Shown here piece after piece: positions 24,401 to 53,800 of a DNA stretch of 64,000 nt. The notes beneath the pieces are model-generated. The model was not told the origin of the DNA, made no database searches, and worked only from the letters and a program-made list of their open reading frames with translations. The stretch is from Branchiostoma floridae. Taxonomy: Eukaryota; Chordata; Leptocardii; Amphioxiformes; Branchiostomatidae. The stretch spans positions 6,017,216-6,081,215 of the forward strand of contig NC_049982.1 of NCBI RefSeq assembly GCF_000003815.2, given 5' to 3'. The position numbers and the translations under genes are program-made. Each line of letters begins with the position of its first letter. Position 1 is the stretch's first letter.

Positions 24401-27400
24401 ATTTAGGGCATTAACCTTGCACGATGGATACCTATTCACTCTGACTTCTACTCTGTTTTGATACGGTCAAGTTAAAGGTCACTGTATCTGTCTTAGTCCT
24501 TTGTGAAATAGTTGTTCCTTTGTCCGTCTGTACGGGATGTTTCTTCTTGTCTTGTCCTAATATAACATTTGGTGTAAGAATTGTGAAACGGTCACTATCA
24601 TTACGCTACAGTGTTTTACGAACCAATCGGAACACCTATTTCCTGACGGATTCAAGAAATTTCACATTCAAGTCCACTGTTTGACAGCATTCAACATATC
24701 CACTGTGTAGAACGCTGCGCTAGCCTTGTCAGGAAGTACCTTATGATAATTGTGAGAGTAGAGTAACTGACCATGCCGGTGAGAGCTCCGTTAGCGGCGG
24801 ACAGGTAGGTCCAGTTGGGTTTCCCCAGGATGCCGACACGCTTCATCAACATAGCGACAAGTCCTGGAGATGAACAGACGCAGATTAGTTGTTGATAAGG
24901 CATATAGTCGTTTAAACATTACTTATGATATATGATGTAAAGCCTAAATGTAGATCTTTGCTCAGGACATCAGTGGAGCGTTTGGCGTTAGTTCTCCGTG
25001 CCATACAAGACGCGAGGAAAAGATTACAGAAGCCAATCCTGGAAACCAATATGACGGAGTTGACTGACCTGGCAGACATGGCATTCCGATCCGGTAGATT
25101 TCTAGCTAGATGGTGCCCTGTGTGCCCACTTTAAACAGTTATATAGGGCAATGCCATGACGTACCTCCAATGGATGCTGAGATGATCGTGTTGACTGTGA
25201 TAACAGACACAGCCTCCCCGGACCCGGATCGGGAGATGGTGCCCTGTGCGCCCACGTTAAAGGCTCTATGGTTACTAGTATGTTATAAACATAACGTACC
25301 TCCAATGGATGCTGAGATGATCGTGTTGACTGTGATAACAGACACAGCCTCCCCGGACCCGGACCGGGATATGGTGCCCTGTGCGCCCACGTTAAAGGCC
25401 AGCAGTCCCAGGAATATCATGAAGGTTCCAAGTGACACCAGCTGAAGATGACACAATAACAAACTTTTCACTCTTTAGACTATCACCATCAACAATTGAT
25501 TAAGTATTTAATGAAATATTGTATTTATGTTCCATACTCCTTGACACAAGTAGCAAGAGAACATACGTTTGCATGGGGCCCAATTTTCATTTCGCCACAT
25601 TGTTGTGTGTAAACAACGGACCTCAATGGGTTTTAGCAAACGCTTCATTACTCTTTGCCGACAGATGAACAATTTAAATGTTCAATCTGCAAAAACCTGC
25701 AAAGCCGTGCAAACTGTGTTCTTCAGGTCTTGAGGTAGCTTTTTTTGCGTGTTACCAAGCAACAACAAAAAAAAATCAATGAAACAAATGAAAATATCTG
25801 AACTTAAAAAAAATAAATAAATACATTTCTTGGCTTGCATGAACAAATTAACGAAGATAGTAATGGAGACGTCATGACCAACATGCTAGGTGTACAAATA
25901 TTGTTCTTCTTTACCGGGACGTTGTGCTCAGGAATCCTGACAGCCCTCCGGCCCTCAAACCTGCCGATCCTCCGCCCCACCATGATGGCGCCCGCCAGTG
26001 CAATAGCGCCCCCTGTCATGTGAACTACACCGCTTCCAGCAAAGTCCTGGAAGAGAGGCCTGGAGAAGTTCTGGAAAAAAACAGTAAAAACGAAGTTTGA
26101 TGACAGCTTATAATTTGCTCGCCATTGAAATTCAAAATATCAATATGACTTGTCGTACGTTGTTTCATTTTTAATCTTTGTGCATCAAAGTTGGATTTGA
26201 TTTGATATATCTTCCCAACGATCAACTTTAGGTGGCCATGGACCAATTTTTTCTCCAAAGATTTTTGTCTTATTCAAGGTGTAATCGCGATATCATATTT
26301 GAAGTTTCACTATAGTAAGCGGAAAAGAAAGCCGCATATAAAGTAACGGCAGATTTTTTCACCATAAAATGACATAAAGACTGAAGCCCTGTAGCTTCCG
26401 AATCAAGTGCCAAAAGGAAAAGTTAATGTGGCGTCGTGCGTGGCGTAACTGGTACCTGGCCTCGAAACTTCAGTAGATAGTTCAATACTCCCCGTGCCCC
26501 CGACGTCATTTATACGACCATCATCACTTACTTCACCCAGGTGTAACAATGGGTACCAGACTTCGGTCGGGCAGGTAAAATACTACATTTGCCTTCCGTA
26601 GGTACTTGTATGTGGTACCGTGAAACTGTCAAGTTACTAACTCGAGTGCAGTGCCACATTGCCCAGGTCTGTCCCAAAGCAAACAAAACAAATTGAATGT
26701 GCGCCGACGGCCGTGTCTTACCGGGAAGACCAGCCCTTTGTCCCCCGCCCCGGTCCGCAGCCAGCCGGTGGGAGCCCACGCCCAGTGGCTAACCACCGGG
26801 TACAGGAATCCTGGGAAGCACAGAAACAAATCTCAGTACATACAGAGAAAAATGTAACAACTATCTTGGAATATTCATCAAACCTTATTAGAATATCTAA
26901 TAGCTACAGATTCCCCGTATCTAGCTACCAAATCTCTATCATAGAACCCTTTTCAGATATATTTACTGGATAAGCCAAAGAGTAGTAGATAAGCCAAAGA
27001 GTAGTAGCCTGGGTACATCCTGATGTATTTCGCTCCTATGTCGCTTCTGCTATCAGGACGGGAACAGCTCAGAGAAGCGATATATATACATGTACTGTAT
27101 AATGAATGTCAGATCGAACGCCGGGGTGAACTACTTTCCGGATGGTACCCAGGCTAAAGGAGTAGTGGATAAGGCAAAGAGTAGTGGATAAAGCAAAGAG
27201 TAGTGGATAAGGCAAAGAGTAGTTGATAATGGATACAAAGTATGACGACGAAGAAGAGAGTGTTGTCAGGAAACATGACCCTACCAGAGATGAGCATTGC
27301 GTACACCAGACAGGCAGCGAACTCTACCCGCTCGGACAGCGCGCCCGACACGATGGTGACGCAGGTGGCCGCCAGCGTGAACTGGAAGAACCACCTAGCG

Positions 27401-30400
27401 TGCGTCACGTCAACTACAGGCAGGCTGAGGAAGAAGTTGCTGTGCCCGAGGAAGAAGTTGCTCGGGGTCCCGTAGGCGAAGGCGTAGCCGATGCTCCAGT
27501 AGGCGATGCCGGATATAACTGAAATGAATAAGCGCGGACACGCAATATCGTAAAGTCATTCGGCTCTCATTTACAGTTAAGGTAGAATTAAGAGACTTTA
27601 ACGTTCACTCAGTCTCAGTCTAGATTCGACGCTTGCGTGTGACATGCGGCAACTTCAAGTACACCCAATGCATTACACATCTTACAAAGACAGACAAAGT
27701 AAGGCAGTCAAAAACATATTGCAAAATATTTTAGCTCTTTAAAAACATCATGCATAAGAGTAACTTACATAGTTTGTAAGTGTTAAACATATAGTCGTTA
27801 CTGTCTAATCTCAGCAGACTGTGCCACGTTTTCAAAACTACATTTGAACTGTACATATATTTTAGCTAAGTCTATGTCTTTGAAGTAGTCGCTTTTAACG
27901 TTGTGATTGTTGGACCAGGTGCATTTCATGTGAATATCTTCTAACTATGTCACATTTCAGGCCAACTGAGTAAAACAGAATTTGCATCTTAGTGCCATCA
28001 CATTGTTACTGCATTTCATCGACGAATATTTAAATTTCCCGAATAAAAAGTACACGTTACAAACAAATAGACTGAGATGTGGAGGGTTATTGTTGTTACT
28101 CACAGACATTGAGCATGGTCCTGATGAGGATGTTGGTGGTGTTCTTGCTCCGGACGGACCCCGCCTCTCGGAACCCGAACCCCGCCTGCATAACTGGATC
28201 CGGGGAAAGGCTGGCATTAGTACAATCATGAAATGGCTTCAGTTCTAATTTATCAAGGTATTGCATTCAGTCATTACGTATCTTACAAAGAAATACAAAG
28301 TAAGGTGGCCCAGAACGTATTGAAAAATATTTTAGTTCTTTAAAAGAAATGACATCATGAATTATACAAAGATTAAAGTATGTGTAAAAGGGTACTCTGA
28401 TGATATGGTAAAATTCAATCATTACATATAGCAACAATACATGAAACTATGATTTACACCTTAAAAACTCATTGCCCTAAAAAATTGCATCATTTATGTT
28501 ACAAAGTAATCCAAAGTACGCTACGTAGACAGAGGTGTCAAACGGCACGAAAAAAAAGATTGATGAATAAGGGCATGCGGGTTTTCACTGAAAAACAACA
28601 TAATAAAGATGAGTTTAGCCGCCACCATACGGCTGATATGTCTGCCGGCGTCCCGCAGCAGACGATACCATCATATACACCTGTCCGCGGCTGACCTTTG
28701 TGGAACAACAATAGTTACAGGTCACGTGGTGCTGGCACGGTTCCAACCCGGCTAGTTTTGATCACAGATTTATGTGCTTGTCATGGTTGGTTAATGTATC
28801 GTACACTTCGGTGGTACATAGTCGGGTCACCCATTTTTTTTCTATTTCTTTGAAAATCGATCTATTCACTGATATATTTCTTTTGTCACGCCTATCATAT
28901 TACATACTGGTAATATTTGCATCATCAACAATTGTCACTGCAGTGTAATAAGAGTTTTCTTCTTTGGATTCGGGAAAGGTTGAGGGATATACTGTACGTG
29001 TACATTGTACTAGGAACAAACAATAGATCTGTGTGATTATATAACGTAGAAAAACGGCATTCCCCAACAAGATATGAATTGAGGGATTTATCTCAACCTC
29101 TTTGGTGTTAGCACGAGTAATGCCTTCTAAGAGATTTGACGGCAGGTTCGGCCACTACAAATACCTGGCCTAGAGTCCTGCCCTTTGGTGTTCTAGCGCA
29201 AATACGGCTACTACAAACGCCTGGCCTTGAGTCCTGTCCTACGGGGTTCTAACACAGATACGGCTACTCCAAACTCCTGGCCTTGAGTCCTATCCTTCGG
29301 GGTTCTAAGTCTAACACAGATACGGCTACTACTAACACCTTGCACTGAGTCCTGCCCTTTGGTGTTCTAGCGCAAATATGGCTACTACAAACCCCTAGCC
29401 TTGAGTCCTGTCTTTCGTGCTTTTAACGCAGATACGGCTACTACAAACTCCTACCCCTGAGTCCTGTCCTTCGTGGTTCTAACGCAGATACGGCTACTAC
29501 AAACGCCTGGTCTTTAGTCCAGCCCTTTGGGGTTCTAGCCCTGATATCGCGTGTGACCAGTAATGGCAGGTGTCACACTGACTGTACTGTCTGTTACTCA
29601 GGCAGACCCTGTTCAACGGGTCCGCGGGGAGAGGTCGTCCCAATGCACGAAAACAATGCAGCTTGTGTCAACCTGATAGTAGATCTACGTGGGGTGCATT
29701 CTATTTCAAGCCAAATTGTATCGACAATTTGACTGCGTTTTGTAAAGCCTATGATGTTCGTTGTACCTCTGCGAGTGAAATAGCTGTCCTCAAAAGTGAC
29801 TCAATATTTAAACGTCCATAGTACACTCACTGTAATGAAATAGCGTAGCGCAAAATAAGCAGTGTAGGATCTAGTATGAAACATTTACCTGAAATTATGT
29901 TTTGTTTATTTGTAGTCTATCTCAGGCCCAACATTAAATACCTACATACACACATCTAGAAAAAGAACGAGTGGCCACAAGTATTTACAATAACTACATG
30001 AACTTGATGAAGCCAATACTATTGACCACTGAATCTAAAATCCGCTTTTTTCTTGCAAAAGCAATATAAGCAACTGATTCTGGTCAGGGAAAAACAAATT
30101 ATGCAAATACAAGTACTAGATACGAAGTATGTGACTTCCTGTTGCGTCAAAAGCTGGCAACAAAGTTAGGTAAACGACGGATACGTATACCAAAAAGGGT
30201 CATGGTATCAACTTCAACTCATGTAGTTTTACGTCAGTTATAATTATGTCAGATTGTAAGGTTGACCAATCTGACTGAATTTTTTTTTCTAAAACCCAAA
30301 CAATGCCTGCAGCACTAACGTCTGTCAGTAATTATCTGACTCAGAACCAACTAGTGTCCCTTTTAACCCAATCGATTGAAAACTGTCGCTTCTTATTAAG

Positions 30401-32653: not shown

Positions 32654-35600
32654 TTAATTGAAATAGAAATAGAGAAAAAAGGCGGCACAGAAGGTTACGT
32701 AGACCACGGGAAAGACTACCCGGGCCACCCTGTCGATCCTTCCCGTCACAGTCTCCACCTTCTCCTGCATCTCTGCCTCTTCCTTAGGGTCGATGATGGA
32801 CGGGAAGGCGTACGAAGTGAACTCCGGGGGTACCGGCACGGTGACCACGGGGTTGGTGGGATCGCTGTCTCCGTGAAGCCGCGGGCGGCCGATCACCGGC
32901 TTGGCCCTGGGGATGGGTTTGCAGGTCCTGGCGATGTCGTCGGCCTCCTCCTCGGTCCCGTACACGGACCTCCATCCTCCTCCTCCCGCCGTCAGCTCCC
33001 AGCCGACGTGCACCTGGTCGCCGTCGTCGGGGTTGCGGTCGAGCTGCCGCCGTCTCCTGATGTTCATTTCCTCGACAAATTTCGGCAGTGGGATCGACTC
33101 AGGACCCTGGGAGTTGAATGCCTTAGCTTCCTTCTTGGCCTTCTTGTTTGCCTTCTTGTTGGCTTTCTTAAGCTTCTTGTCCTTCTTGTTTCCCTTGCCC
33201 TTTGATGGCGCCGGTTCCTGCTCCTCCTCATCCCTGTCCTCAGGCCTGGGGATGACGATCCACCTCTCGTCCGGCAGGCGGTGCCACATGACGTTCCCCG
33301 GGTTCTTCAGCTTCGGCCTGGGGATCTTGAAGGGCCTGCTGATCCTGTCGAAGGCGCTGACGGCGGGCACGGTCTCGGGACGCTGGTGGCCGAACTGCTC
33401 CTCCAGGCTGCCGGCAGGTCTGGCAGAGAACCCCGGGCGGGGGATCCTGATCGGAGGGTTCTGCTGCCTGTCCAGGACCTTCTGCTCCTCCTGTGTTCAA
33501 CACATAATGGGGGTTGTGTTAACAATTCTGTTGAGGTGACCACCTGTTATACACGAGGATCACCTTCTAAATGTTACCACGATTTAGTGGTCCCTATGGC
33601 ACTTTTACAATTGACACAAGTATGAAGAATCCTGTTCATGGTAACCACCTGTCCACATTGACCAAGTTTGATTTGCCCCCTAACTTTATTTTATTTGGGA
33701 ATTTATTCTACACGTTCCAAGGGACAGGGAAAGCAAAATATGGGAGGTCCGATGTAGTTGTTTGCGGGTTAACATTAGACTTTGAGTCCTGTCCAATCTG
33801 TTTGTACGCGACTGTGTTGTTAGACAGCTTGAATATGTTATAGAAATAAAAAAGAAACATGTTATCACTTAGGAGAGAGAATAGAGAGATGACAACTGAA
33901 AAACTTTTCAATACTATTTATCGATACACGAACTGGTAAAGTCATCTATCGATATCGGAACTGGTGGTTCATCTTTCCTATCCATATGTTTTCACGAGTC
34001 AGACTTAAGCATGGAAGATACATTTTGCGCTACCAATACAATTTTCACGACTACAAGTTCATTTGCTACCTTCTTCAGGAGGTAGCAGTAGATGAAATGG
34101 ACCAGTCCCGTCTCCGCCAGCATCAGTGTGACAACAGCCAGACACCCCTCGAACCAGAAGTCTACAGCTCTTGCCTCTGATATCTGTAAATGACAAATAC
34201 CTTTACTGTAGGTGTCACGGTAGTGCTTTAAACACTTTTAAGCAATAGATAGCTAAAAGTGTAAAGTCATCTTTTTCATCACAAAACCAGGTGTTATTCA
34301 CTTATTTCACTTATAAATTATGTCCAAACAAACTTTGCAGGATATAACCTAGACCATGGGAAAAGCCACAAAAGGAACTAGTTTTCAATAAGCATCCGGT
34401 AAAATCGGATTGAATGTTGGAAAGTAGGTAAAGGCCCCCTCTCACTTGACGTGCGGCACGCTTGCGGCATTGCTGCGTTCGTTCACTGCGGTACTGATTT
34501 GTGATATTCTGCGATTTGTTATAATTCAGATATTACGCAATACGTAAAAGTGTGACATAGAAGATCACAAAATACACAACAATTAAGAAAATTCGTTCTT
34601 TATCTCTGAAATTCGTTGAGCGTCTTCCGAACGCAGCAATGCCGCAAGCGTCCCGCACGTCAAGTGAGAGGGGGCCTTAAGGGCTGACAATTGGTAGAGG
34701 TATTGGCATTCTCTCGAGCCTTCTACCACGTACGTTAATACATTCTGATAAACAACCAGACGAGGTAGCCTCCATAGCAGGCTCTCTGGGGCCTGCTTTG
34801 GCTCATAAGACACTTTTGCTGGCCATTTCTTGTTGTACTGGGTCGCCGGATCTCTGATTGCCGGTCGTAGCTGATTAAGTGGCCAGTAAATCAGCGACGG
34901 CCGGCAATCAGCAGCCCAGTACAAAAAGAAATGGCCAGAAAAAGTGTGTCATGACCAACCAAAGGCCCCAGAGAGCCTGCTATGGAGGTTACAGACGAGC
35001 CATCCTTACCCACGGCATCATTACGACGCTGGTCTGGTGGATCATGGCCAGGTACGGGATGACCCCCAGCGTGAACCTGCCGGTGACGTCAGAGATGCGC
35101 AGCGGCATCCACAGCTGCAGGTATGACGACACGACCAGCGCGGCGGACGGCACGAACACCCGCAGCACGGAGCTGGTCAGCAGGCGGCGCAGATGGACTC
35201 GCACGTCCAGCGTCGTGTAGCCGTTGGAATCTTAAACAAAAAGGTTAAGGCTTAGGTTCCAAATCGAAAACTGCTCGAATTTTCAGCCAATCACACCGGG
35301 TCACCCCTACTCTTCTCGATAAGTGTTTTGGGCTCTTTTACGTCCAGAGGTTTAGCGTTTGAGGTTTAACGCCTAAAGCTAAGCGCACAACCCGCCGTAC
35401 GTGCAAATACGTGCTGTCTACGTGCCAAGGGCAATCTTTTCGGTTCGGTAAGTGGTAAGTACAGCCTCCGTACGAACTCGTAGGGAATCCGACGGATTTT
35501 TTGAGCACGCAGACACGCCGTAGAACTTTGTGCAGACAAAACTTTGTGTGCCATCGGTCTGCGGATTCGCCTCCCGTACGTGCCAGTACGGACGACGCGC

Positions 35601-38600
35601 CTGCCCTGTACAGCCTGAACGTTTTCAGAAATACGTGGCGGACGTGGCCTCCCAAAAGAGGTACGGACAATTTGCACGTACGGCGGGTTGTGCCATTAGC
35701 TTAAAGCTCCCTCATAGACGGGCCTACACTCAAACCCACTTACTCCTTTTCTTACACTCAAACCAGCTAACCTGAGTTATAGTGAGCGCAGTTGTTTAAC
35801 TCCGACTGGCAGGTCCCAACTGTCTTCCGGCACCGTCGGCATTCCTCGCTGGCATCACAGTCGGTGAAATGTCCGAACACACACCTCTCGATATCGTACG
35901 CGCACGTCTTCTTGAAAAATGTGCAACCTGTGATGAATTGATATAATTTATAAGTAGTTATTTAGGTAGATGATAATGCATGTCTGATTTGTGTTTTCTT
36001 CAAAAGTTGAAAAATCACCGAAGCGCAAACGTCTTTCCTCTTACAGATTACTAGACCTAACCACATAGTTGCTTTAAAAGACCGTGTCTTTTTGGTTACC
36101 TGTGGCCACAGTTTTGTGAGAACTGGCGAAAACCAATGCCCGCGCGGATTTCATCCATAAGATCAAGACTAGGGCAAGCAGGCCAGACTGTCGGGGCTTG
36201 GATAATGTATGCATATTATCCAGGCCTCGACAGTCCTTGTAGCTGATTCCACTCAACGACTTTACGTTGAAAGAAAGAAGATTTCAAACAGTCCCTTTTA
36301 GCTATGATCAACTGATATTTAGTCGTGTGGCTTCCGCTGGTTCTGCGTTGGGCTGGTTTAAGGTACTGGGCATAATTATGGGGAGAATTATCATCATGCA
36401 TCCCTCTCCATCATAAAAAATCATATCACCTTCAGTGTTGGACACGAAGGAGTGGAAGGCGGCCCGGATCTCCACTCCGGTCAGCTCGAACTGCGACACG
36501 ACTTCCCGCGCGTCCGTCTTGATCGCCGTCAGCATGACGTCATCCGACGGCAGAAGACGCAGTCTCACTCCACCATCTGTTAGCGCAACAAACAGGCGGT
36601 AACAAACCGAGTTCACAAACTAGACCGGTACTTCCATGAATCGTTCCCGCGGGTAGGTAAATCACTTCGTAAAGTTCATTGCCGACTGTCAGAGACGTAA
36701 AGACAATACTGATTGGTTCTACACATGTACTCATGTAAGCCGCAGCTATACGGCAGTAGGACCTCTCTTAACAATTACGCATACGGTCGTGGAAGGCCGC
36801 GAAGGATGGTAAATCAACACGGGGCTGATATTACTACTTATCATAATGGAAATCCTTTATGACATGAATTTACGTAAACAAACTTAAATACTTGTAAAAC
36901 TTGGTTATAACTTACATCCGCGCAGCTGCACGACGCAGGTCTGGGTGTCGAACGGGTAGTTCCTCAGCGACACCGAACACGACACCTTGAATCTCCGCCT
37001 GGAATAAAATGAAGGTTATTTTGATTAGACATTTGATCATTATTGCGTCTGTTGTAACCCACAGAATATCGTAAGTAGTATAATAGTGTCATTAGATTCT
37101 TACAATGATACTAAATAATAGTCCTATCGCAGGACAAAACAATAGTACATGAGACCATGCTGAATCACTATAGTTGAAGCTAGTTACACATGTCTATATA
37201 ACCCTCTTGAAGTAACAGACGGACTCGAATCATGTAGCAGCCGTCATTCGTATGTATTTTGTACCATATAAGGTAACAAATGTAGGAATATTGTTATCAG
37301 GACTGTACACTTTATCTCTGTTATACATTTTGTCTGACCCTTTCCTCTTTCGTCCTCATTACCTCAACGTAAAACCCGGACTACAGACCGATTTGGGAGC
37401 TTCTCGTGAATAAGCAAATGTTTAAAAAAACAAAACTTACGTCATTCTATAGACGACCATCCCTTCCGGGCTCAGCCATCGCGACGACGCCCCGCCCTCC
37501 ACAGCGGCGGCCCGGCGCACCGTGCTGCCGAACGCGAGCGGCGGCGGCGGGACGAGTCTGTCCGGCACCGGGACCCAGCGGTCCGTCAGGCCGCTCAGCG
37601 TCGAGTTGTACCACGAGAACGCGTACTCGATCGTCACCGACATGTTCTGGGGTTACGTGAAACAGCAGACATAATAAGGTATGGTTATGTATCATTCGTG
37701 GCGTTAAGAACAGCGCTGAGACTCAGTCTTCGACCAGTTTAGTCTCTATTCGTCTATTTTTTTCAGGAACAAACAGGAAGTCCGACCACTTCTCTTGTAA
37801 AATATTTCTTTGCTCCCCCCACCCCCGCGCCACTGAAGGAGTTTAAAAAAAATCCAAATTGGCAATCAGCAGCAATGGTTTTATTTTACCCCGGTTATAG
37901 GGTGAGTTGCCCTGATCTGAAAGTCGACTTTCATTGTGCACTTTTGACTTGAAACAACCGACAGAAGTCCGGCGCGGTTATACTGGCGGACAAGGTGTTT
38001 ACACTATGTGACATAATATCGTTAGGTGCAAAATCATAACAAGCTGCTGAAGCAAAATCCAAGACTAAGATTTTGTTAAATGATACATATCACAACATAC
38101 TATCAAATCTAAAGCTTTACACTCAAATGCCAAATACCGCATGTTCCTCAGAGAGCTGACCAACGTGACGAAGGTAGGCGGATGTAGCGATATCAAATCC
38201 GCCAGCTGGAAATAGAAAGGAATACAAAGTTTTTAAAAATGGTACAACTCCCGATAGGTAGCTAGCGATAGGCACAACACATGTGTATTTCAAACAACGA
38301 CCTAGACGTACAGATCAGAGATCTGTCCTTCTCGCTGCTCTGATAAACAGAAACTCTCCCTCCTATTGTATGAAGGAAAGTTGCCAGAGAATCACGTCAC
38401 CAATTACAGTCAACGTGAATGGCTAGTATTTTTCCCTTCAAATGCGCGAAGGAGAGTATCTGATTGGCTGATAGCTGGCCAGCGCTAACCCAGTGAGAAC
38501 AGGTCGCAGTGCAATTTACGCCGGGCCTGTGCGCCGAGTACGCTCAAAATACACGCTCTCCAAGCAGAGGTGCGGCTCCGATTGTTTTTGAAGTGTTTTA

Positions 38601-41600
38601 GTAGTCGTTTTTGTCTGGCCAGTGGACATGACGAAAACGCTTCAAAAAATAGAAAGCCCAACAAAACGCCTATAACACATCAAAACAGCCGGAACCGCAC
38701 CTCTGCTTGGAGAGTATGAAATATACTAAACACACAAGCAGCGGACCTGGCATGAGAGGATGTTTGGTGGCACATCTAGCTCTATTGAAAACCATGGGTG
38801 GCATACTGTTTTACATTAGCATAGCTGTCCTGGGGGTCAGGGTACTGTCTTGTTACACATATTTTGCCAACAAATGAATACATAGATAACAGTTACTGTA
38901 CTACAAGGTCGACAGATAAGATATGAAAATTTTCAAGCCGAATGTGCAGAATTCTCTTGGTGAAGAGACCTAACGTGTGTGAAACATACCTTTCTTTTGC
39001 CAAAAGGCAGTTACTCAAGCAACTGAATATGATTTTTGAAACAATCAGACGTTTCAGATAGTATCCACTATCTTTCGTCAGTGATGCTGGAAGAAACTGG
39101 TTATTTATGTCCTAGCTATGAATTAAGTATCCTAACCAATTCATAGTTAGGGTATAAAAGACACAGACACTGTCACTAACGACATATAGTAGATACTATC
39201 TGAAACGTCTGACCGATTACAAAATTATATCCAGCTGCTTGAGTAACTGCTTTTAGGCATATCGTATTACCTGGATGTCTAATAATAACCTTCATCGACA
39301 TACCTTTATTTTCCCATGGGTTGCTCCCGTCATACCCCGGCAGAAGGGACTCTACCGGCTGCCGCAGCCTCTCCGCCTCCAGCCAGGTGTGCGTGCCGTT
39401 TGGATCTTCAGTTGGGTTCAGCAACCCCTTCAACGCATTCAGCACTCGATTAGCCTGATATCCAGCCGTAGTATAGCTCCCGAATCTCTTCTGTCCTCTT
39501 CGCAAATACGAAGAGGACAGAAGAGACTCGGGAGCTATAATACGGCTGGATACCAGGCTCTAGATGTAAACGTACGTGACAGGAAATACTGAAAAGAATT
39601 CTGTACACGCAAAAGTAAATGCAATGCTCTTAAGGTGGGTTCACACGTGCATATATACTAAAGTCCGTTTGAGGTCCGTATGGAAGTCTTAGCCTCTACC
39701 ATACTCCACATGCCGTTGGAAAAATAGTAGCAATCGGACAAATATAGACAGATAACATGCCAAACGAGTTAGCTGGCCGAGGATTATGGTTTGCGACCCA
39801 GCTAACTCGTTTGGTATATTATCTGTCTATATTTGTCCCATTTCTACTATTTCCCATTTCTACTACTTTCCAGTGACCTGCGGAGTCTGGTATAGGCTAA
39901 GAATTTCAAACGGACTTGAAAATATATGTACGCACGTGTGAACCCACCTTTACATAGTGATTATAAGCGTACACTACATTCGTTAACATTTTATTATTAC
40001 TAATGTATATGGAATTCGTAATAAACAAAAGTAACCATTCTTATAAACAAAAAGTGATGATTATAACGTTAGTTATGCTTACATCGACGTATTGGAAGTT
40101 CTGGGCTCCTGTAGAAAGATACAAAAATGCTTCAGTTTAAAACATGTCATTTATGCAGTTGTGTGGAAAACCTATTAATTCTGACATATTTGCTTTTCAC
40201 ACTGGAAATTAATAATCAGTCAAACATAACTTATTCACTATTTATTATTTGTTGGTTTGGCTGTTCAGTACGCACAGACAGGGCTGCCCACAAAGAGCTT
40301 TGTTCTGTGTGTAAATAATTGAAAATACAATAAACAAATAAAAAAAAAAAGAGCTAGCCCTGCTGACAGAGACAAGGACAATACAAATGTACTATAAACA
40401 TGTAGCTATGTCCATGACAACTGACCTGTACCAGCTGTACAGTCAGCATCTTCGTAGCACAGCCGACTGTCCCCTGAGTTCCCGGGGCAGTGGTCATTCC
40501 CGAAGATGTCCGGTTCGTTCGGACACTCGCGATCCCGCGTCTGTCGGCCCAGTCCGCAACCAACGCTGCACTCGGACCAGGGGCCCCAATCCGACCAAGG
40601 CTGTATCTCTGTGGAACACAATCAGAACAAACGCGATTCACTTAAGTTACCATACCATATCTATTATGTACAGCTTTGGTTTGGTTTGGTTTGGGTTGGC
40701 TTGGTTAGATTCGGATTTCGATCCCATCCGTGACTGATATGTCTTCCTCGACTCCGGAAAAATGGTGTAAATCAGCGTATGGCTGATGCGAGACGGAGGT
40801 TCCCCAGGCCTCCATCCGGGTGATTTAAAGTCAATCACCAACTCAAGGCGCTAGGCAGAAGGATTTGCACCATCGCAACAGCTGGTTATATTTACTTCAT
40901 CGCTACACCACTTAAAAGGTGAAAGACCCTAACAACGAGATACTATCCATGTCATAAAAAAAACCTGATGAACGGAAACTATATGAGATCAGAATACAAG
41001 TAGGCTTGTAACACCGATGAAAACAAATGAATATGTATAAAATTAATGTTTAAAGTAGTGAAGGAAAGAAAAGTAGAATTATGAAGCCATAATGGTAGGA
41101 AAACCAACGTGTCCAGTTAGAGAAAGTAAGATGATGAAACAATGACTTGCCTGTGCAATTACGTCCATCGGCGTCCAGGTAATGCCCATCGTCACAGGAA
41201 CAGATGTAACTGCCCCATGTGTTGTGGCATTGATGGTCGCACTCATCGATGGACCTCTCACATTCGTTCACGTCTTGATGATAGATATAAGAAAAAGAAT
41301 ACGTTTTATTCACTCAATTGCAACTCATACCAACATCGGCAATCCCAAAGAACACGATATGACCAGACTATTTTTAGAAACCCGTCTTGGTCAAAGGTCC
41401 CAATTGCTCCTGTGCCCGTCAGAGATGAAGCCCTAGCCTCTATACCAGGCTCTGTGGATCGCTGGTCAAATACTACTACTACTACTGCTACTACTAATAG
41501 AATTTGGACAAATAGAGGGAATAGCATGCTTGGGGAGTCGGCCGGACAGAGGAGTCACCCGTGAGTCATGTACTGACTCCTCTGGTCGGCCGACGACCCT

Positions 41601-44600
41601 TGCATAGCTTCCAATACTAAATGGGCGGCGTCGGGCGTGGCATGACTGGTAGAGCGTTCGGCTCAGAATCTATAGGTCCTGAGTTCGATCCCCGCCGTGC
41701 CCCCGACGTTGTGCCCTTCCTCACTTAACCTAGCTAGGTGTAAAAATGGGTACCTGACTTTGGTCGAGTATGCAAAAGACTACCTTTACCTTCTGTCTGT
41801 ACCATGTATGTGGCACTGGTAATATAAGTTACAAAAACTTGAGTGCAGTGCCACATTGTCTGTCCAAAAAGCAAATAGACAAAAAAATACTACATTGCCC
41901 CGGCCGGGCCCCAAAACCACAAATTTGTCCCGGTGGACTGACGGATACCAGGGGTTACGTCGTTTATTTGTTTCCTGGCCCCGGGTTCATTCTAAGTCCG
42001 ACTTAACTTCAACCCGGTTCCCTGTCAGGCCAAAAGATATCCAAGGAGCTGCAAGGTGTCCCACAGGACCACGTAGGGGTCACGCCCGAAAGTGCCAAAA
42101 AACTAGTACGTGAACTGCCTTACTTACCATTGCATCCTTTGGAATCGCCTTTCAAGCTGTATCCTTCCAGACACGAACAGTCATGGCTCCCAAACGTGTT
42201 GTGGCAGGTCTGGTTGCACCCACCGTTATCAGTGGCACATTCGTCCACATCTGTAACAAACAGATGTTTTGTTGATCAAGAAAAAGTGGGATATACAACA
42301 TTTTTAAACTATACACATGTTTGTGTTTGATTGATGCTCAATTATCAATGTGCTGAATGAGTGAGTTAACGAGTGGAAATAAGTGAGTGAATAAATCACA
42401 TTTACAGTGAATTAATGAGTGAGAAAATGAGAGTGAAGGAGTGAATAAATTAATAATTGAAGGTGTGAATAAGTGAGTGATCTTGTGTGAATAAATGAAT
42501 GAATGAATGAATGAATGAATGAATGAATGAATGAATGAATGGGCGATTGAGAGAGAGGAAACGAGTGAATGGATGAGGGAATGTATGAGTAAGCGAGTAC
42601 AATATATGCGTGGGTGAATACGTGAGTAGTGAATGAGTGAATGAATGAGTGGGTGAATGAGTGAATGAGAGATGTTCGCATGCCTGAGATAGTTATCACT
42701 GTACTTTGTTCACCTTCACACACAAGATCCTCTCCCGTCCAGTCGCCCTGTGGACTGCAGGTCCTGTTGACATCTCCGGAAGCTGCCCGGAACCCCGGGG
42801 CACACTCATAGGAACAGAGGCTAGCTTGGCAGTTGCAGTCAGGACCGACAGTGTGTTCTGGTCTTGGGAGGTCTCCACAATCGCGCTGGAGTATGTCTGA
42901 GTGGATAACAGAAACATGACTATCATCCTGTTGTTGTTGTTGCACATTTTGGTTACTTCTATTCACTAACTGTACATGGGTTACGTCAATGAGGTTTAGA
43001 CATCCAAGAAATAAGAAACGCCAAATAGAAATTACTCACAAGCAACTGGATATGATTTGGGAAATGGTCGGACGTTTCAGATAACATCCGCTATTTTTCG
43101 CCTGTGACACAGAAGAGATCTAGTTTTAGAGCGAGTTTATATCTTAATTATGAATTGATATGCAAAGGATATGAATTTTAGTATTCCAATAGGACAAGAG
43201 TAGCTTCCTATTGGACTTCTAAAAAGTGCCTTCATCTCCTTTGCATATCAATTCATAGTTGTGATATAAACCCGCTCTAAAACTAGATCTCTTCAGTGTT
43301 TTTTTATCTATGCTGTGACCACACCTCTTCTTTAGCAGCTGTGCTGACATTTACAATGCATCACGCTGGCGAATATCGGTGAGGTGGGCATTAACTATTC
43401 GTTTAAAGTTCTTCAAGTTTCTGATATTTACAATGTCCTTTGGTAGACAGTTCCATAGCTTAACTGTGGCTGGGAGAAAAGTGTCACTGACGAAAGATAA
43501 CGGATGCTATCTATAATGTCTGAACGCTTTCAAAATGATATCCAGTTGCTTGAGTAATCGCTTTTTGGTGTACATGGGCAACTTTTATGTTTGTGCCCTA
43601 TCAACTTGATACTGTATTACCTTGTACTTTTATATATAATACAGATGTTGTTCCCCACTGTACTTCGGTTGAAGTCACTGACGACGTGAACAAAGTCTGT
43701 CTGTTGCTCAAGATCAATATTTCACTCATGATAGCTAATGTTTGGGAACAGGAGTAAACATGACCACACTGAAGAAAAACAAGCCTTGTGACCATACCTG
43801 TTTCACAGATAAAGCCATGTTGATCACTACATGTTGTATCCCTCCACTCATTTTGATCGTCCCGATTAGCCATGCGGATGCAGTCTTCGTTTTGGTTGCT
43901 GGTTGGTCCTGCAGATCCCCAGTTGGTGAAACTTCCCCCCAGTGGCTCTTCATCGTCCCACACGAAGCTCCCCTCCTCCGCCTCATCGTTCAGTCCGATC
44001 CATGTGTCCATGTCGGGGTTGACGCAGTTCCGCAGTTCCACCAGGAAGTTGCTGGTTTCCCGGTCTTTGGGGAGAGCCAGGCGAGAGTGGCGGCATGCGC
44101 ACCGGGCTTTGGCTTCTGCGTATGACTCCTCCGCTTCGAAAACTCGGAAACATTTGGAGCCGTGCCTTCGCCAGGCAGGACCGCATTTGATACCGGCCGC
44201 TGTGTGGGAAGAGGTACGTATTGAATAGATATGGAAAGATGACAAATCAAGAAAACAATACTCAGTAACTGTATTTATCTTACGACTTCAATATTAAAGA
44301 TATTAAATCGTTTTATAATACTAATGTGAGACACTGTGTTTAATGTCATAAAATATGAGTTCATAATTAGGGTATTCCAGCAGTTTCCTCAGTTTTACTG
44401 ACGAAAGGTGGTGCATGCTACCTGAAACTTCTGACTGATGTTTTGACTTGATCTTCAGGTGTTTTGACTCAATCTTGAGATGTTTTAGAAAAATCTTAAG
44501 ATACTCCGCAAAAGTCTCAAGACATTTTGAAAGTTTTTTGTGAAAATTTCCCGTGTCTAGAGATTATAATGTATGACTCTAAACAGACTGGCTTTTGACA

Positions 44601-47303
44601 TAGAAAATGACGAGTGTTTCGCCTGCTGCTTAATCAATAGACAAACGGCTAATTCAGTGTGGTTAAACAGTATTTCTGCTGCCCTGCTAATCTGAAAGGA
44701 GATTCCACGGTGACATAAGATAGTACAAAAGCTAGTAAAGGAGTGTAGCTGGCCTCGGATTGTTCACTGATGGCTAATGGACATTCCGAGGCCGGCTACA
44801 CTCTATAACACTATTTCTCATAGATTGAACCAGTCAGCAAAAGTGACATAGGGATTAGTCTTAAGGTTTTTTAATAGAATTCTTTATCATTGCTATAAGC
44901 AACTGGGTAGATATCAGTCTTGATGTTCTGTACATGGTCCATGGTCCATGGTCCCCGACCCTCCTGATGAGGATAAGACTAGGTGAGGTCAGGTGTTCTG
45001 TGCAGTGTTAGTCTAGAACTTGCCGTGCATTGCACCCGTTACAATTGTTGCGCAATTAAGATTCATTGATTAGATTGATTGACTACATTGTGGACAACAC
45101 CACCCCTAGGTCGGCTATACCCCTTTGCTAGCCTTTGATACTATGCCACCGTAGGATCTGCTTGGAGATTACTGCCCTATACCTACCATTTGAACACCGG
45201 AGTATTTCCATTCGCATACAGATATACCCTTGCCAATCCAAAGGACGGAACCGTACGTAGCGCGCTGTTACAGGTTCACTAAGCAGATGTTGAACAGTGC
45301 AGTGTCTATCACTGTTGCCCTCAATCTTTGTGATGAGAAAGAAACTCGTGTATATGATGATGGTTAACCAAAAACCAAAGTCTTCAATAAGATGTTGAGA
45401 CGGTAAATAGAGCGTTGACAAAAAAAGTTACAGCGCAAAGTTATTAAACCAACAAAAGAACAATCAATCTATAATGCATGACATATCAGACATAAATGAT
45501 AAAGTGGCCATTATAAGCGCCTATAACACACAAAAGAAATAAACAATTCTCTAGTTAATGTTGAAATGATGTACATAAGCGACCTTTTCTTCTCCTTGTT
45601 CAGAGTACGTGTTCCATGTAATGCCATCAGAGCTAAAGTCTAGCTTATACTGTTTGACCCACTGGTCGGCATCAGCTCTCCCTTGCGTAATGACACCCGC
45701 TACCTTGGTGTCTGTGCCCAGGTCAACCTGGATGGGACGATAAATAAGTATCAAACTGGACATTTTGTGAAATAATTTTGCACCAAAACAAAAGTTAACA
45801 ATTGCATAGGCACCGTAATTGAAGCTTACGGCTTTTTTTGCCACCTCAAAAATGTCTATTTAGAACTTTAAAAGAATTTGATGCTGGCAGTTTATACTGG
45901 GATAGGCATCAGCTGATTAACATAACACTGTTAGGATATCTACTTAAAAAACGGGAAAACCTACTATAAAGGATATGGATATGTCATTTTGCAAGTCACA
46001 ACGGAACCGGCCATGTCCATGTAGGTTTCATTGGTGTGTGTGCACGTGCATTCTTCGTCAGAGTTGATACGGCTACAGTGTAGACGATATACTAGTAATC
46101 AATTCAGTCACATTTACGAGCTCGACTGAGTTGACGAAATTGTCCCACTAAGATTTACCATTTCTCCAATCTACTGCTTAGCTTTCTGTTACATTTCACC
46201 TGGGCGGGATATACCTAATCTCCAAGCAGATACTACGGTAGCATAAGATAGTATCAAAAGTTGGCAGAGGAGTGAAGCCGGCTTAGGAAAATGCACACCT
46301 CTTGGCTGACTACACTCCTTGGCCAGTTTGGTACTATCTTATGCCATCGTAGGATCTGCTTCGAAATCAGGACAGTATACCCCTGAAGTGGGCTCTGTCA
46401 AGTAATGCACAGAAATAGAAATCTTACCTTAAGCCACTGATCAGCATTATTTTTTTGAGCAGCACACCAAGCTCCACCGCCCCTGGTGATGGCCTCCTTC
46501 TGAGAGTTTAAGATTGCTTTATCCGTAGAGCAGCAATGATGAGTAGGAGATGCAGTTATCTCAACTTCACCATTTCCCGCGACCATCGGCTCCATGTCGT
46601 TGCATGTATCTGCAACAGAAAAGCAGATAACGTTACATGTATCCCACTATCAGTAAGCTAGCCAATGCATGTATTTGTTTCGTACACGCAGTTATAAAGT
46701 TATCATTACTCTGATGCCACGTTATGTAATAAGTCCAAATGAGAGAAAAATATAGATTCACATCAATCATCATCCTGATCTAAAAACCATTTTCTGTAGT
46801 GTTGATCAGGGAACGAATGTTACAGTGTCCAAACGGTGTTATCAGGCGTTCTTGTGCCTAGACTAAATGTTCACATTTACTGTCTAAAAATATCGAAATT
46901 GGTTTTCATAAAACAGCATTGTTATATAGCTAGTGCATAAATAATAATAACGTGAAATCACATCAGAATTTCTAGAAATTAAAAACATATCTACAACCGT
47001 TTAAAAAATGGCATAATCTTAGTTAAACATACGGCATAATCTTAGTTAAACATACTTGAAAAGGTGAAAACTTCAATGTGCCGGAAAACTTCCAAAGAAG
47101 TCGGTTTTTACATGGCCTTTACATTCATGTAAGTTTAACCGATGTCTATATGACCTACATTATGACCTCACCATTTGCAGTTTCATAACACTAATACCAT
47201 TTCACGCTAACAAATGAGATCACACACCGTTCGAAACAGGCGGGAAAACGCAGAGAAGACAGACGAGAAGGCAGCAGACGACAGTCCGCCGGCGCCAGCT
47301 CAT
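32654..47303 (-). CDS. Chimeric Cys-loop ligand-gated channel with discoidin-lectin-sushi-EGF-TSP1 ectodomain
   Basis: Exons in transcript order: 47303-47228, 46609-46428, 45727-45584, 45325-45187, 44199-43798, 42896-42714, 42250-42128, 41273-41151, 40608-40432, 40108-40083, 39454-39304, 38205-38138, 37646-37441, 36998-36916, 36576-36430, 35927-35772, 35230-35010, 34183-34070, 33490-32654. Every junction keeps frame; about 1,185 residues. Order: signal peptide ~1-25, F5/8C ~27-180, C-type lectin ~181-314, sushi ~315-375, EGF ~376-416, EGF ~417-457, TSP1 ~458-516, Cys-loop receptor LBD ~526-815, M1 ~817-838, M2 ~843-864, M3 ~875-900, long basic M3-M4 loop, M4 ~1160-1183, stop. The Cys-loop is canonical, C-x13-C with YPFDTQTC. 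It should be a plasma-membrane pentameric channel with a large adhesive head; ligand unknown. Two adjacent genes remain possible, but no stop, second signal peptide or start separates the halves. Confidence 0.83.
34433..34679. mobile_element. MITE with ~50-bp TIRs
   Basis: AAGGCCCCCTCTCACTTGAC... is mirrored almost perfectly at the right end (one mismatch in 51 bp). Lies between the M3 and M1-M2 exons of the channel gene. Confidence 0.85.
34768..34992. mobile_element. MITE abutting the M1-M2 exon donor
   Basis: TIRs GGTAGCCTCCATAGCAGGCT / mirrored at 34960-34992. The right end is about 18 bp from the end of exon 35230-35010. Confidence 0.8.
35376..35703. mobile_element. MITE with CACAACCCGCCGTACGTGCA ends
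   Basis: Terminal inverted repeats of about 28 bp, GC-rich interior, no ORF of its own. Between the loop-C and M1-M2 exons. Confidence 0.8.
38553..38716. mobile_element. MITE with CTCTCCAAGCAGAGGTGCGG ends
   Basis: About 160 bp; the 5' end is mirrored by CCGCACCTCTGCTTGGAGAG at the 3' end. Between LBD exons. Confidence 0.8.
38998..39256. mobile_element. Inverted-repeat element family B
   Basis: Ends AAAAGGCAGTTACTCAAGCA and mirrored TGCTTGAGTAACTGCTTTT; inner arms carry GACGTTTCAGATAGTATCC. Related sequence occurs at 43.03-43.57 kb, 53.16-53.22 kb and 63.2-63.35 kb. Confidence 0.8.
39452..39563. mobile_element. Near-perfect hairpin element at the LBD exon acceptor
   Basis: Arms of ~50 bp (AGCCTGATATCCAGCCGTAG ... 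mirrored ... CGGCTGGATACCAGGCT). Its left end overlaps the acceptor of exon 39454-39304. A larger relative lies at 54654-55022. Confidence 0.8.
39632..39952. mobile_element. MITE with AAGGTGGGTTCACACGTG ends
   Basis: TIRs at both ends and an inner palindrome around CAAACGAGTTAGCTGG. Between the linker and first LBD exon. Confidence 0.8.
41533..41598. repeat. Hairpin GAGTCGGCCGGACAGAGGAG
   Basis: Arms of ~25 bp around a short loop, just left of the SINE at 41633. Confidence 0.65.
41633..41900 (+). mobile_element. tRNA-derived SINE
   Basis: The first 70 bp (41633-41702) still form an acceptor-like stem (GGGCGTG with CGTGCCC), with box A-like TGGCATGACTGG and box B GTTCGATCC, followed by a tRNA-unrelated body shared with the 26.4-kb copy. 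Between the two EGF exons. Confidence 0.8.
42360..42690. repeat. GAAT microsatellite and flanking degenerate repeats
   Basis: Perfect (ATGA)n around 42490-42540 within a wider GAGTGAATGAG-rich tract, in the intron between sushi and EGF exons. The long minus-strand ORF across it is a repeat artefact. Confidence 0.9.
43029..43568. mobile_element. Family B element with nested palindrome
   Basis: Outer arms (ACTCACAAGCAACTGGATAT ... ATATCCAGTTGCTTGAGTAA) enclose an inner inverted repeat at ~43110-43300 (GAGATCTAGTTTTAGAGC mirrored). Between lectin and sushi exons. Confidence 0.7.
44697..45171. mobile_element. Family C inverted-repeat element near the discoidin exon donor
   Basis: Left end GGAGATTCCACGGTGACATA, right end ...GGATCTGCTTGGAGATT; inner hairpin at ~44740-44812. 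The right end is 16 bp from the last discoidin exon (ends 45187). Confidence 0.65.
46218..46371. mobile_element. Family C inverted-repeat element, short copy
   Basis: AATCTCCAAGCAGATACTAC... is mirrored by ...CGTAGGATCTGCTTCGAAAT, 150 bp overall, between discoidin exons. Confidence 0.75.
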
Positions 47304-50896: not shown

Positions 50897-53800
50897 TTAC
50901 CTCCTCTTGCCAGCAGAAGGAGGGAGTGGGGGTCTCCTCTTGCTGCCTCCCTCGCCCGGAGCCGGAAGGGCCAGGATAGGGGGACCGTACGGGTCAACCT
51001 GGGATTAAAAGAAAGGATGACAACACTGTTAAGAGAGCCTCATAGTACTTTATTTTGTCCAGTAAAGCATATGTAATCTCAATGAGGCCTGCAGGTTGAT
51101 TTGAGCTTCTAATGAATAGACTACAGTTCCCAAACAAACTACAGCTCCCAAAGGATCTAATTATGACATTATGTGTCATGCGTCACAAATTATGGTTTGT
51201 GCTGGATAGAATGATTGTTGTATACTCAGTCTGGTGGAACTAATGTCATCTTCTAAAAAGCACCTTTCAATTTAAAATGCATTAACAGTGCTGGCTATTT
51301 CTAATCAGCAATATTACCAGGTGTCATGTCATGCCAGAGTGGTTAATGTGAAAAAGAACCATTTGAAAAAAGCTTTTGAATAATACAATGTGCTAGAGGG
51401 TCTCTTGAGGTGAAACTCAGTGCTTTAGAATATTGTAGTCTAACAACATACAGCTTATACCTTTGTAGACTGTTTACAATGGTCAATGGAAGAGAGAAGA
51501 TAAATATTAGATTTAGTAACAGACATTTACTGTATACAAGTAATTTACAGATTTCATATTACGTTTGTCACTCAATAGTGAACTCAACTTCATAGTGTCA
51601 CCAGATGGATGAACTGAACTGAACTGTCACTCAATATATTATTAAGCAACTACCATCAAAGTTAAAGACTAATAAACTACAAATGTTACACAGAGTAAGG
51701 GCAAGAGCTTAAAATCAAGATTTGAGAGCAAGCAATACAACCGCTTTAAACCTCCAACCTGACAATCAACTTGGGGAGGTGTAATGGAGGTTTAAACCAA
51801 AATCGAAATGACATTGCCCAACACTATACAAATGCTAAGTTCACATGAAGATGATGAGTCTCATGAAAAAAAAAAGAAGAAAGAAAAGTAAGATACTAAA
51901 TATCATTATTCTACTGGCAAACATTAAATGCAGAGAAAGCCTTACTGACCTCTACTTTAGGGTTAGAGCGAGGAGTGACCATCAGCACATCGGTCGCCTC
52001 CATCCCCTCCTGTTTCCTGGCTCGTGACCACGCAGCCTTCACCTCAACCTTCCGTCTCGAGGCTGGGGGAGGGGGATGATGAGAATTTTAATATCATAGT
52101 CATGGCAGCTAATATTTCCATGATCCATAAAAACATTTCAGAAAAAGTTACACTTTGGAATTCAAGAGAATGCATGCCGATTCAACAAGTTGGCACTTAA
52201 CTTGACAATGTGTGTGTATATTGGCTCAAATTTTGTGTTGAAGACTCAAAGTCTGATAATTAAAAGACACTCAAATGTGTAGGATGAATGGGTCAAGATC
52301 ATAAAATCAGGAAATCCTACATGACAGTATTCATGTATGTTTTGGCACTATTGCTTTGGTATTCTTCAGATGGGAGAAACTCAAAGAGCTGTTTTGTACT
52401 AATGCACCAGTGACTTGAAGGTTATGTAACCTCCTTGCTGTAAGTTGCAGTAATAAAGCTGAGGTTCTAAAGATCAATACTAGACAGCATGTACCTTTGT
52501 TGTTCATGTAACCCTCTCCACTGGACACACATAACAGCTGATCCCTCTCCACATCATCCCACGATTGCACCTACAGAATATACAAAAATATGATACACAG
52601 TTTAATGCCAAAATTCATAAACAAACAAACAAAGGATTACATGATTGTATCTCAGAGGGAAAAGATCCTGCTTTAGAAATATGTATGGTGTCAGGACATT
52701 ACTGTAAAATGTGGATATAAATATGGAACAAATCTTGAGTTGCAAGCTATTTTGATTCTTCATTCATGAAGACAATTGTTTAAAGTATACAATTATGTCA
52801 ACATTGAGATTTACTAATATGGAGCTCCATCAGAAATCCTATTGAACATGAACATTCAAGTATCCAGATGTTCAGGACATTCTTGTGAAGTCTTCAAGAA
52901 CAATGTAGTTTTAGTGTGTCAAGAATGTTGAAGTTATGGGCAATTTTACTCTTTTGGCATCAAAACCCACCTTTTGTCCATCAGCAGTGTACAGTGTCCG
53001 TGCTGCTCTCTGCAGACTCAGACGAATTGTGCAGGATTCAAGCAGCTGGAGGAACACAACATCAGCAAACAATTATTTTTGTTCTCTTTTTCCTTCAAAT
53101 TTTTTCAGTGATGTGTTATTATTATTATAATAAGTGGTTTGGCATCTATTATTCATGGTGCATTAACTGCTTTTTGGCATGTCTTATTACCTGGATGTCT
53201 AACCTTCATTGACTCAAGCTGATTATCTCTCCATTATTCCTCATTACCCTTACCTGTGGTAGGTTGGCTCCCCAGGCATACACAGCCTTGTCCGCTGACT
53301 CTCCATTGGGGTACACCAGCACACGTTTCTGTAGGGACAGAAACTGTTCATTGACTGGGAAAATTGATAGCATGGTTCTGAAATTTACATTTCAAAGTGT
53401 TTTCCTTTATGTACAACAGTATGCAATAGGATGTTTATTACTTGCACAAACCGGGGCAATGATAAAACAAAAAACTCAAGATGCTTGATACAATGAGCAG
53501 CAGCTACTGTCAAGGACACAAAAATAGAGCACGTACGAAAAGGAGTTTATCATACATTTGTAAGTCAAAGTTTGACACACCAACTTTTCCATATTGTATA
53601 TTAAATTCACCAGCTTAACCAGTAGGTATATCAAGCTACCTTTGAGTCAGTAAATATGTTCTTCTTAGCTACAACCTTAAAGACAGTATTCGCCAATCTA
53701 AACAGAGTATTCATAACTTACAATACTAAATATCTTATTGAGTTTGTAGTATTACACGTTGTACATTTACTGCTACATGTACATGTACTGACCGTGGTTG

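Follow-up and report, generated by a model that had tools for sequence, protein, structure and literature searches.

A lancelet gene predicted to join a head of adhesion modules to a Cys-loop receptor channel

A stretch of DNA from the lancelet Branchiostoma floridae, a marine relative of vertebrates, very probably carries a single gene in which a head of adhesion modules is fused to a Cys-loop receptor, as judged from genomic DNA and predicted proteins. This stretch, hereafter referred to as the window, covers 64,000 nucleotides of contig NC_049982.1. The best overall explanation, to which we assign a probability of about 60%, is a recognition-coupled pentameric channel with an adhesive head: One gene would encode a subunit of a pentameric ligand-gated channel (pLGIC) of the glycine/GABA-A type that carries shuffled adhesion modules on its outer end. 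The case for the fusion rests on the raw DNA, on two haplotypes, on a conserved micro-exon, and on the presence of TSP1 before the channel at many loci. The fusion appears to be more than chance, because the same order recurs in the second haplotype and because related heads occur at other loci and in other lancelets.

An exon-by-exon rebuild from the DNA yielded one continuous frame of 19 minus-strand exons, running from 47303 to 32654 with no stop (Table 1). The first-pass annotation had read these exons as lying on one strand in a single frame, which was borne out by the rebuild, the open frame, and the splice sites: Donors were GT at 17 of 18 junctions and GC at one (EGF2), and acceptors were AG at all 18. 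The modules follow one another as signal peptide, discoidin (three exons), C-type lectin, sushi, EGF, EGF, TSP1, a 26-base micro-exon, and the Cys-loop receptor (nine exons), with ~490 residues of adhesion modules before the channel. All exons from the lectin to TSP1 are of phase 1-1, the phase that is typical of shuffled modules. Active shuffling of such exons in lancelets is described in the available part of PMC4284660. One boundary had to be replaced: Exon 11, which was first given a start at 39454, most likely starts at 39427 on sequence grounds, because P0001, a predicted B. belcheri-type relative, joins YVD straight to GLLNP, because the second haplotype reads ttgcag up to this same point and GGG after it, and because 39454 adjoins a 51-base palindrome. 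The predicted product measures 1178 amino acids with the corrected exon 11, versus 1187 amino acids with exon 11 as first given. Intron 10 (window 39452-39950) is largely palindromic, with MITE-like repeats, one of which adjoins the splice site at 39454.

Table 1. Exons of the predicted gene, in transcript order, with positions in the window.
Feature	Position	Strand	Basis or remark
Exon 1, start codon and signal peptide	47228..47303	-	25/25 residues same in second haplotype
Discoidin (F5/8 type C) exon 1	46428..46609	-	rebuilt frame and Pfam
Discoidin exon 2	45584..45727	-	rebuilt frame and Pfam
Discoidin exon 3	45187..45325	-	rebuilt frame and Pfam
C-type lectin exon, phase 1-1	43798..44199	-	rebuilt frame and Pfam
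Sushi exon, phase 1-1	42714..42896	-	rebuilt frame and Pfam scan of exon alone
EGF 1 exon, phase 1-1	42128..42250	-	rebuilt frame and Pfam
EGF 2 exon, phase 1-1, GC donor	41151..41273	-	rebuilt frame and Pfam
TSP1 exon, phase 1-1	40426..40608	-	rebuilt frame and Pfam
Linker micro-exon, 26 bases, GAQNFQYVD, phase 1-0, head-channel joint	40083..40108	-	frame, second haplotype, P0001/P0002
Exon 11, N-terminal part of LBD	39304..39427	-	start corrected from 39454
LBD exon 12	38138..38205	-	rebuilt frame
LBD exon 13	37441..37646	-	rebuilt frame and Pfam
LBD exon 14, holds Cys-loop	36916..36998	-	rebuilt frame and motif reading
LBD exon 15	36430..36576	-	RefSeq fragment P0014 begins within
Exon 16, phase 1-1, eight-cysteine insert in loop C	35772..35927	-	alignments; no Pfam match
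Exon 17, last LBD strand, M1 and M2	35010..35230	-	frame and alignment
Exon 18, M3	34070..34183	-	frame and alignment
Exon 19, intracellular loop, M4 and stop codon	32654..33490	-	frame and Pfam

A Pfam search of the joined protein, a check that had been proposed along with the initial reading, named all modules except the sushi: F5_F8_type_C (E 8.7e-31), Lectin_C (E 3.3e-19, with the Lectin_C fold signature present), two copies of EGF_CA, TSP_1 (E 5.1e-12), and Neur_chan_LBD (E 9.4e-11; 42 bits vs a cut-off of 26). The sushi was absent from the listing for the whole joined protein and passed when its exon was scanned singly (30.3 bits vs a cut-off of 20.7). Together with the second haplotype and the relatives described below, Pfam upholds the claim that six modules precede the Cys-loop receptor. 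Sugar-binding C-type lectins carry EPN or QPD plus the calcium/sugar motif WND. Sugar binding by the predicted lectin of this gene is doubtful, because GPT and WRD stand at the positions where EPN/QPD and WND would be expected. The lectins of three relatives (P0006, P0008, and P0009) do carry the sugar motif, with EPN in two and QPD in one.

At the joint between head and channel, the frame is stop-free from TSP1 to the LBD, the splice sites of the micro-exon are kept in both haplotypes, and its peptide has counterparts in B. belcheri-type models, namely GPIDFQYVD (P0001) and GPMDFQYVD (P0002). These observations argue against two genes run together by an annotation artefact, in which a secreted discoidin-lectin-sushi-EGF-TSP1 protein would precede an independent channel gene, a reading that we consider quite improbable. 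In its favor are headless fragments that are annotated in two species: The RefSeq model P0014 comprises exons 15-19 only (477 amino acids, 100% identical to the C-terminal part of the gene and without the Cys-loop) and starts at an internal Met of exon 15, and both B. lanceolatum models lack a head (P0124, LBD, 206 amino acids; P0122, M1-M4, 527 amino acids). We read these as truncated models, because none of them amounts to a whole receptor, although they point to thin transcript support; no obvious signal peptide was seen in these fragments. Likewise, the DNA between TSP1 and the LBD offered no convincing separate signal peptide in either haplotype: Each contains one hydrophobic 20-amino acid open reading frame before the LBD, located in a palindromic stretch, for which no donor passed the filter. 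Introns 9 and 10 contain one poly(A)-signal hexamer apiece (of 10 across all introns), which would fit two genes, and annotation fusions are known in lancelets, where even those common to two species can be shared annotation errors, according to the available portions of PMC4967905 and PMC6071037. Against this stand several independent models that join head and channel, as well as the TSP1 that lies ahead of the channel at most of the other loci examined (see below).

The second haplotype is represented by C275, an unplaced scaffold of 33,369 bases that matches the window over the gene and ~11.5 kb upstream (blastn pieces of 150 bits or less dropped) and of which the first 20,000 bases were examined. 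C275 may be an allele or a recent duplicate. It contains, with their order unchanged, the exons from signal peptide to TSP1, the micro-exon, and LBD exons 1-3, after which the contig ends. Matches to LBD4 and LBD5 on C275 were rejected as spurious, since the contig ends, and were kept out of every group. Exon by exon, identity was complete for the signal peptide (25/25 residues) and otherwise 54.7, 79.2, and 84.4% (discoidin), 79.9% (lectin), 78.7% (sushi), 92.5 and 82.9% (EGFs), 96.7% (TSP1), 88.9% (micro-exon, 8/9 residues), and 97.6, 100, and 97.1% (LBD). Splice sites could be found on C275; the exon edges used follow the protein alignment, and several are off by at least 1 base.

Between the haplotypes, dN/dS (alignment columns with gaps or stops dropped) was 0.56 (0.38-0.80) from discoidin to sushi and 0.21 (0.06-0.64) from TSP1 to LBD3, with overlapping confidence ranges, and LBD1-3 differed by three nonsynonymous changes. 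Positive selection on the head was considered and rejected, as dN/dS was below 1 in every group. The comparison suggests that the outer head changes faster than the inner part, and we claim nothing beyond faster change. The dS of the outer head was also higher (0.24 vs 0.06 in the inner part), pointing to haplotypes of old age or to gene conversion. Per 300-base bin, nucleotide divergence ranged from 0.12 to 0.48 across 44.1-47.1 kb and from 0.007 to 0.082 over 47.4-53.4 kb (at least 85 aligned bases in each bin), and it was also raised from sushi to TSP1 (0.10-0.25). A second block of high divergence (0.10-0.44; L027 and L029, C275) lies outside the gene at window 53400-56100. Given these further divergent blocks, at 53.4-56.1 kb and from sushi to TSP1, the outer head is not alone in showing a divergence peak.

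The channel part had 65 matches in the B. floridae genome, grouped on C4 near 11.0 Mb, on C2, on C9, and elsewhere, with loci on C5, C6, C17, C19, and C2:10.8 Mb outside the sample that we examined. Stretches of C4 (120 kb), C2 (30 kb), and C9 (20 kb) made up this sample; by our reading they hold ten further channel loci, of which the C4 cluster accounts for seven, C2 for two, and C9 for one (overlapping weaker tblastn pieces dropped before counting, from 818 raw pieces). A TSP1 exon was found ahead of the channel on the same strand at 8 of the 10 loci, i.e., all seven of the C4 cluster and the one on C9, and at seven of the eight, TSP1 and channel are separated by a homologue of exon 11; the two C2 loci displayed no TSP1 in the stretch examined. 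The heads, assigned by mapping through the Pfam domain coordinates of relatives, include PAN-EGF-FAMeT-TSP1, SUEL-EGF-FAMeT-TSP1, kringle-FAMeT-TSP1, EGF-EGF-FAMeT-TSP1, EGF-EGF-TSP1, sushi-TSP1, TSP1 alone, and, on C9, lectin-TSP1. These loci are paralogues and not independent events. One C4-cluster gene, the P0007 locus, has an in-frame stop in the exon homologous to exon 11; its RefSeq model leaves out TSP1 as well as the exon with the stop, but still links a signal-like start and two EGFs to the channel. The loci of ordinary receptors (L001-L008) span ~3.4 kb each, a length that makes them unsuitable as a control for heads.

Within the window, a FAMeT exon (Methyltransf_FA, PF12248; E 6e-35) lies upstream of the gene at 57773-58354 on the minus strand, and this domain type is also found in heads of the related channels. 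The nearest recognized downstream gene is marked by an ammonium transporter exon (PF00909, E 6.3e-13) at 27157-27555 on the minus strand, and a 465-codon open frame with no Pfam match occupies 18194-19588 on the plus strand.

Profile searches placed proteins of B. belcheri, hybrids, and B. lanceolatum in one family. Their architectures, which are taken from predicted models and may contain errors, read by Pfam as SUEL-lectin-sushi-channel (P0003), WSC-EGF-EGF-channel (P0004, with a signal peptide that resembles the one of this gene), lectin-EGF-TSP1-channel (P0008 and P0009), PAN-EGF-FAMeT-TSP1-channel (P0015), and SUEL-FAMeT-TSP1-channel (P0016), and P0006 and P0012 have two LBDs per model. 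The SUEL-lectin-sushi, WSC-EGF-EGF, lectin-EGF-TSP1, and PAN-EGF-FAMeT-TSP1 heads come from B. belcheri. Against P0001, the channel ends of P0002-P0005 show 95.7-97.1% identity, although the modelled heads differ; among P0006, P0008, and P0009, the channels are 97.0-97.4% and the lectins 86.5-87.9% identical. The C-terminal part of P0011 (B. belcheri) runs into a transposase piece (Transposase_1, E 1.2e-09), probably an annotation error. Fibrillins and fibulins dominated the search with alignment A2, which includes EGF modules (best 120 of 474 matches), and the 15 channel-domain proteins among the matches listed were all from Branchiostoma. With the channel-only alignment A3, at least 13 matches were obtained among 7992 scored candidates, all from Branchiostoma or hybrids. 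Another family search missed relatives that the A2 search recovered. Because scoring in that search and in the A3 search covered a limited number of candidates, and because the former missed relatives, a distant head-fused channel may exist in another animal.

That the gene ends in a complete Cys-loop receptor with M1-M4, as was also proposed at the outset, found support in Pfam, hydropathy, and alignment to glycine receptors. Exon 14 contains a Cys-loop with 13 residues between the cysteines. Neur_chan_memb scored just below its cut-off in the joined protein (E 6.3e-06; 27.1 bits vs 28.1), with M4 alone as the best stretch. Hydropathy flagged M1, M3, and M4 and left M2 unflagged, and M1-M3 were placed by alignment to glycine receptors, with the M1 proline and M4 kept. 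In the aligned M2 (numbering from general knowledge), Arg 0', Leu 3', Gly 4', Leu 9', and Gln 14' are kept, while the lead-in has TGR in place of PAR, two additional residues ahead, and no Glu at -1'. Channels of the anionic (glycine/GABA-A) branch carry a PAR motif before M2 and no Glu at -1'. The retention of Arg 0' and Leu 9' and the absence of Glu -1' suggest an anion-type channel, yet PAR is replaced by TGR. The nearest solved relatives by sequence search were glycine and GABA-A receptors. They were also nearest in a PDB fold search with a low-confidence AlphaFold model of P0123, a relative of this gene's protein, at low TM-scores (0.29-0.33 by query, best 50 rows). That model, built with 18 sequences, had a mean pLDDT of 47.9 (block means of ~57 to 78 over most of the LBD ahead of the insert) and served solely for strand order and this fold search; a model of P0001 with 6 sequences (mean pLDDT 37.2) was discarded.

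Could the fused protein be made without forming a working channel, for instance as a decoy or as an adhesion protein whose channel has degenerated, or could the gene be decaying? The unusual M2 and the fragmentary annotation would fit such a fate. The kept M2 residues, the retained Cys-loop, M1 proline, and M4, a frame that is open through 19 exons, and haplotypes that differ by three nonsynonymous changes in LBD1-3 all oppose it, and we give this option very little weight.

Alignments, with strand order taken from the P0123 model, indicate that exon 16 adds an eight-cysteine module between strands 9 and 10, i.e., in loop C, which is the flap over the agonist site. The insert had no match in Pfam. 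Five C4-cluster genes and one C2 gene share its cysteine pattern, which model P0005 and part of P0006 lack. The WxPD of loop A in glycine receptors is not kept in the alignment (loop names from general knowledge).

In the recognition-coupled channel that we favor, five subunits would assemble and hold five heads above the membrane on EGF-TSP1 stalks, where the outer discoidin, lectin, and sushi would bind glycans, lipids, or proteins on the surface of the matrix, another cell, or a microbe. Binding would then be relayed via TSP1 and the short linker to the LBD, with or without a small agonist, and the LBD signal would alter an anion-type conductance. The heads would have been exchanged and diversified and the channel left near-constant, as expected if heads set the specificity and the channel is a common output. 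The head may act as a tether or in recognition that gates a current, as was proposed at the outset; both roles fit the larger variation of outer modules than of the channel between relatives and haplotypes, as well as the EPN or QPD in lectins of close relatives. As to whether the head is coupled to gating rather than anchoring alone, we consider the question evenly balanced. The chief rival is anchoring without gating: The head would merely hold a conventional transmitter-gated channel at the matrix or at a partner cell, with a small agonist gating it at the usual site. We regard this as a serious possibility, if the less probable one. The complete LBD with its Cys-loop is consistent with it, and EGF and TSP1 stalks are frequent in adhesion proteins; the eight-cysteine insert in the loop C flap and the lost loop A motif count against it, although a small agonist would still be possible with both. 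More tentatively, and in our view rather unlikely, recognition-gated channels of this kind could form a lancelet family whose lectin/discoidin heads, shuffled by exon and diverged between haplotypes, detect microbial, foreign, or partner surfaces and gate an anion current directly. If true, this would amount to a pattern- or self-recognition receptor with an electrical output and a shared glycine receptor-like core.

Among open-access papers, searched by titles and the starts of abstracts and with subscription papers outside the scope, none described a head-fused channel family. The main text of PMC4795631, a pLGIC inventory that takes in B. floridae, contains none of the terms fusion, additional domain, N-terminal domain, and EGF. 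A lancelet-only Neur_chan_memb architecture, 269420_PRF0, is named in one clause of PMC4967905 (2016) and possibly belongs to the same family; its partner domains are absent from the main text, and no analysis is given. Lectin C-type domains are over-represented among dispensable lancelet genes in the available part of PMC12373286, which fits a variable head; neither "ion channel" nor "ligand-gated" occurs in its main text.

Compared with glycine and GABA-A receptors, which are the best sequence and fold matches, the predicted protein shares the LBD, Cys-loop, and M1-M4, whereas those receptors lack both head modules and an eight-cysteine insert in loop C and have PAR instead of TGR before M2. 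Adhesion G-protein-coupled receptors likewise combine an outer part built of adhesive modules with a signalling core in the membrane, but this core is unrelated and the likeness is an analogy from general knowledge. Another comparison is with DeCLIC and other prokaryotic pLGICs with N-terminal domains, whose pentameric channels also bear something additional at the outer end, as described in the available part of PMC9897478 (see also PMC12664993). DeCLIC is bacterial with two beta-rich domains, in contrast to the animal discoidin, lectin, sushi, EGF, and TSP1 named by Pfam here, and its outer domain influences gating (PMC9897478, available part). According to the same portion of that paper (2022), an N-terminal domain present in several prokaryotic pLGICs is unseen in any eukaryotic homologue. 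Should chordates have a family of such channels whose large adhesion heads are interchangeable, animals would have rebuilt a receptor class that is described there as bearing extra N-terminal domains in prokaryotes only. The rebuilt receptors may read surfaces and not only transmitters, could connect lancelet immunity or cell adhesion with membrane excitability, and would make it possible to test, in a natural system, how a binding event far above the membrane is passed on to the gate.
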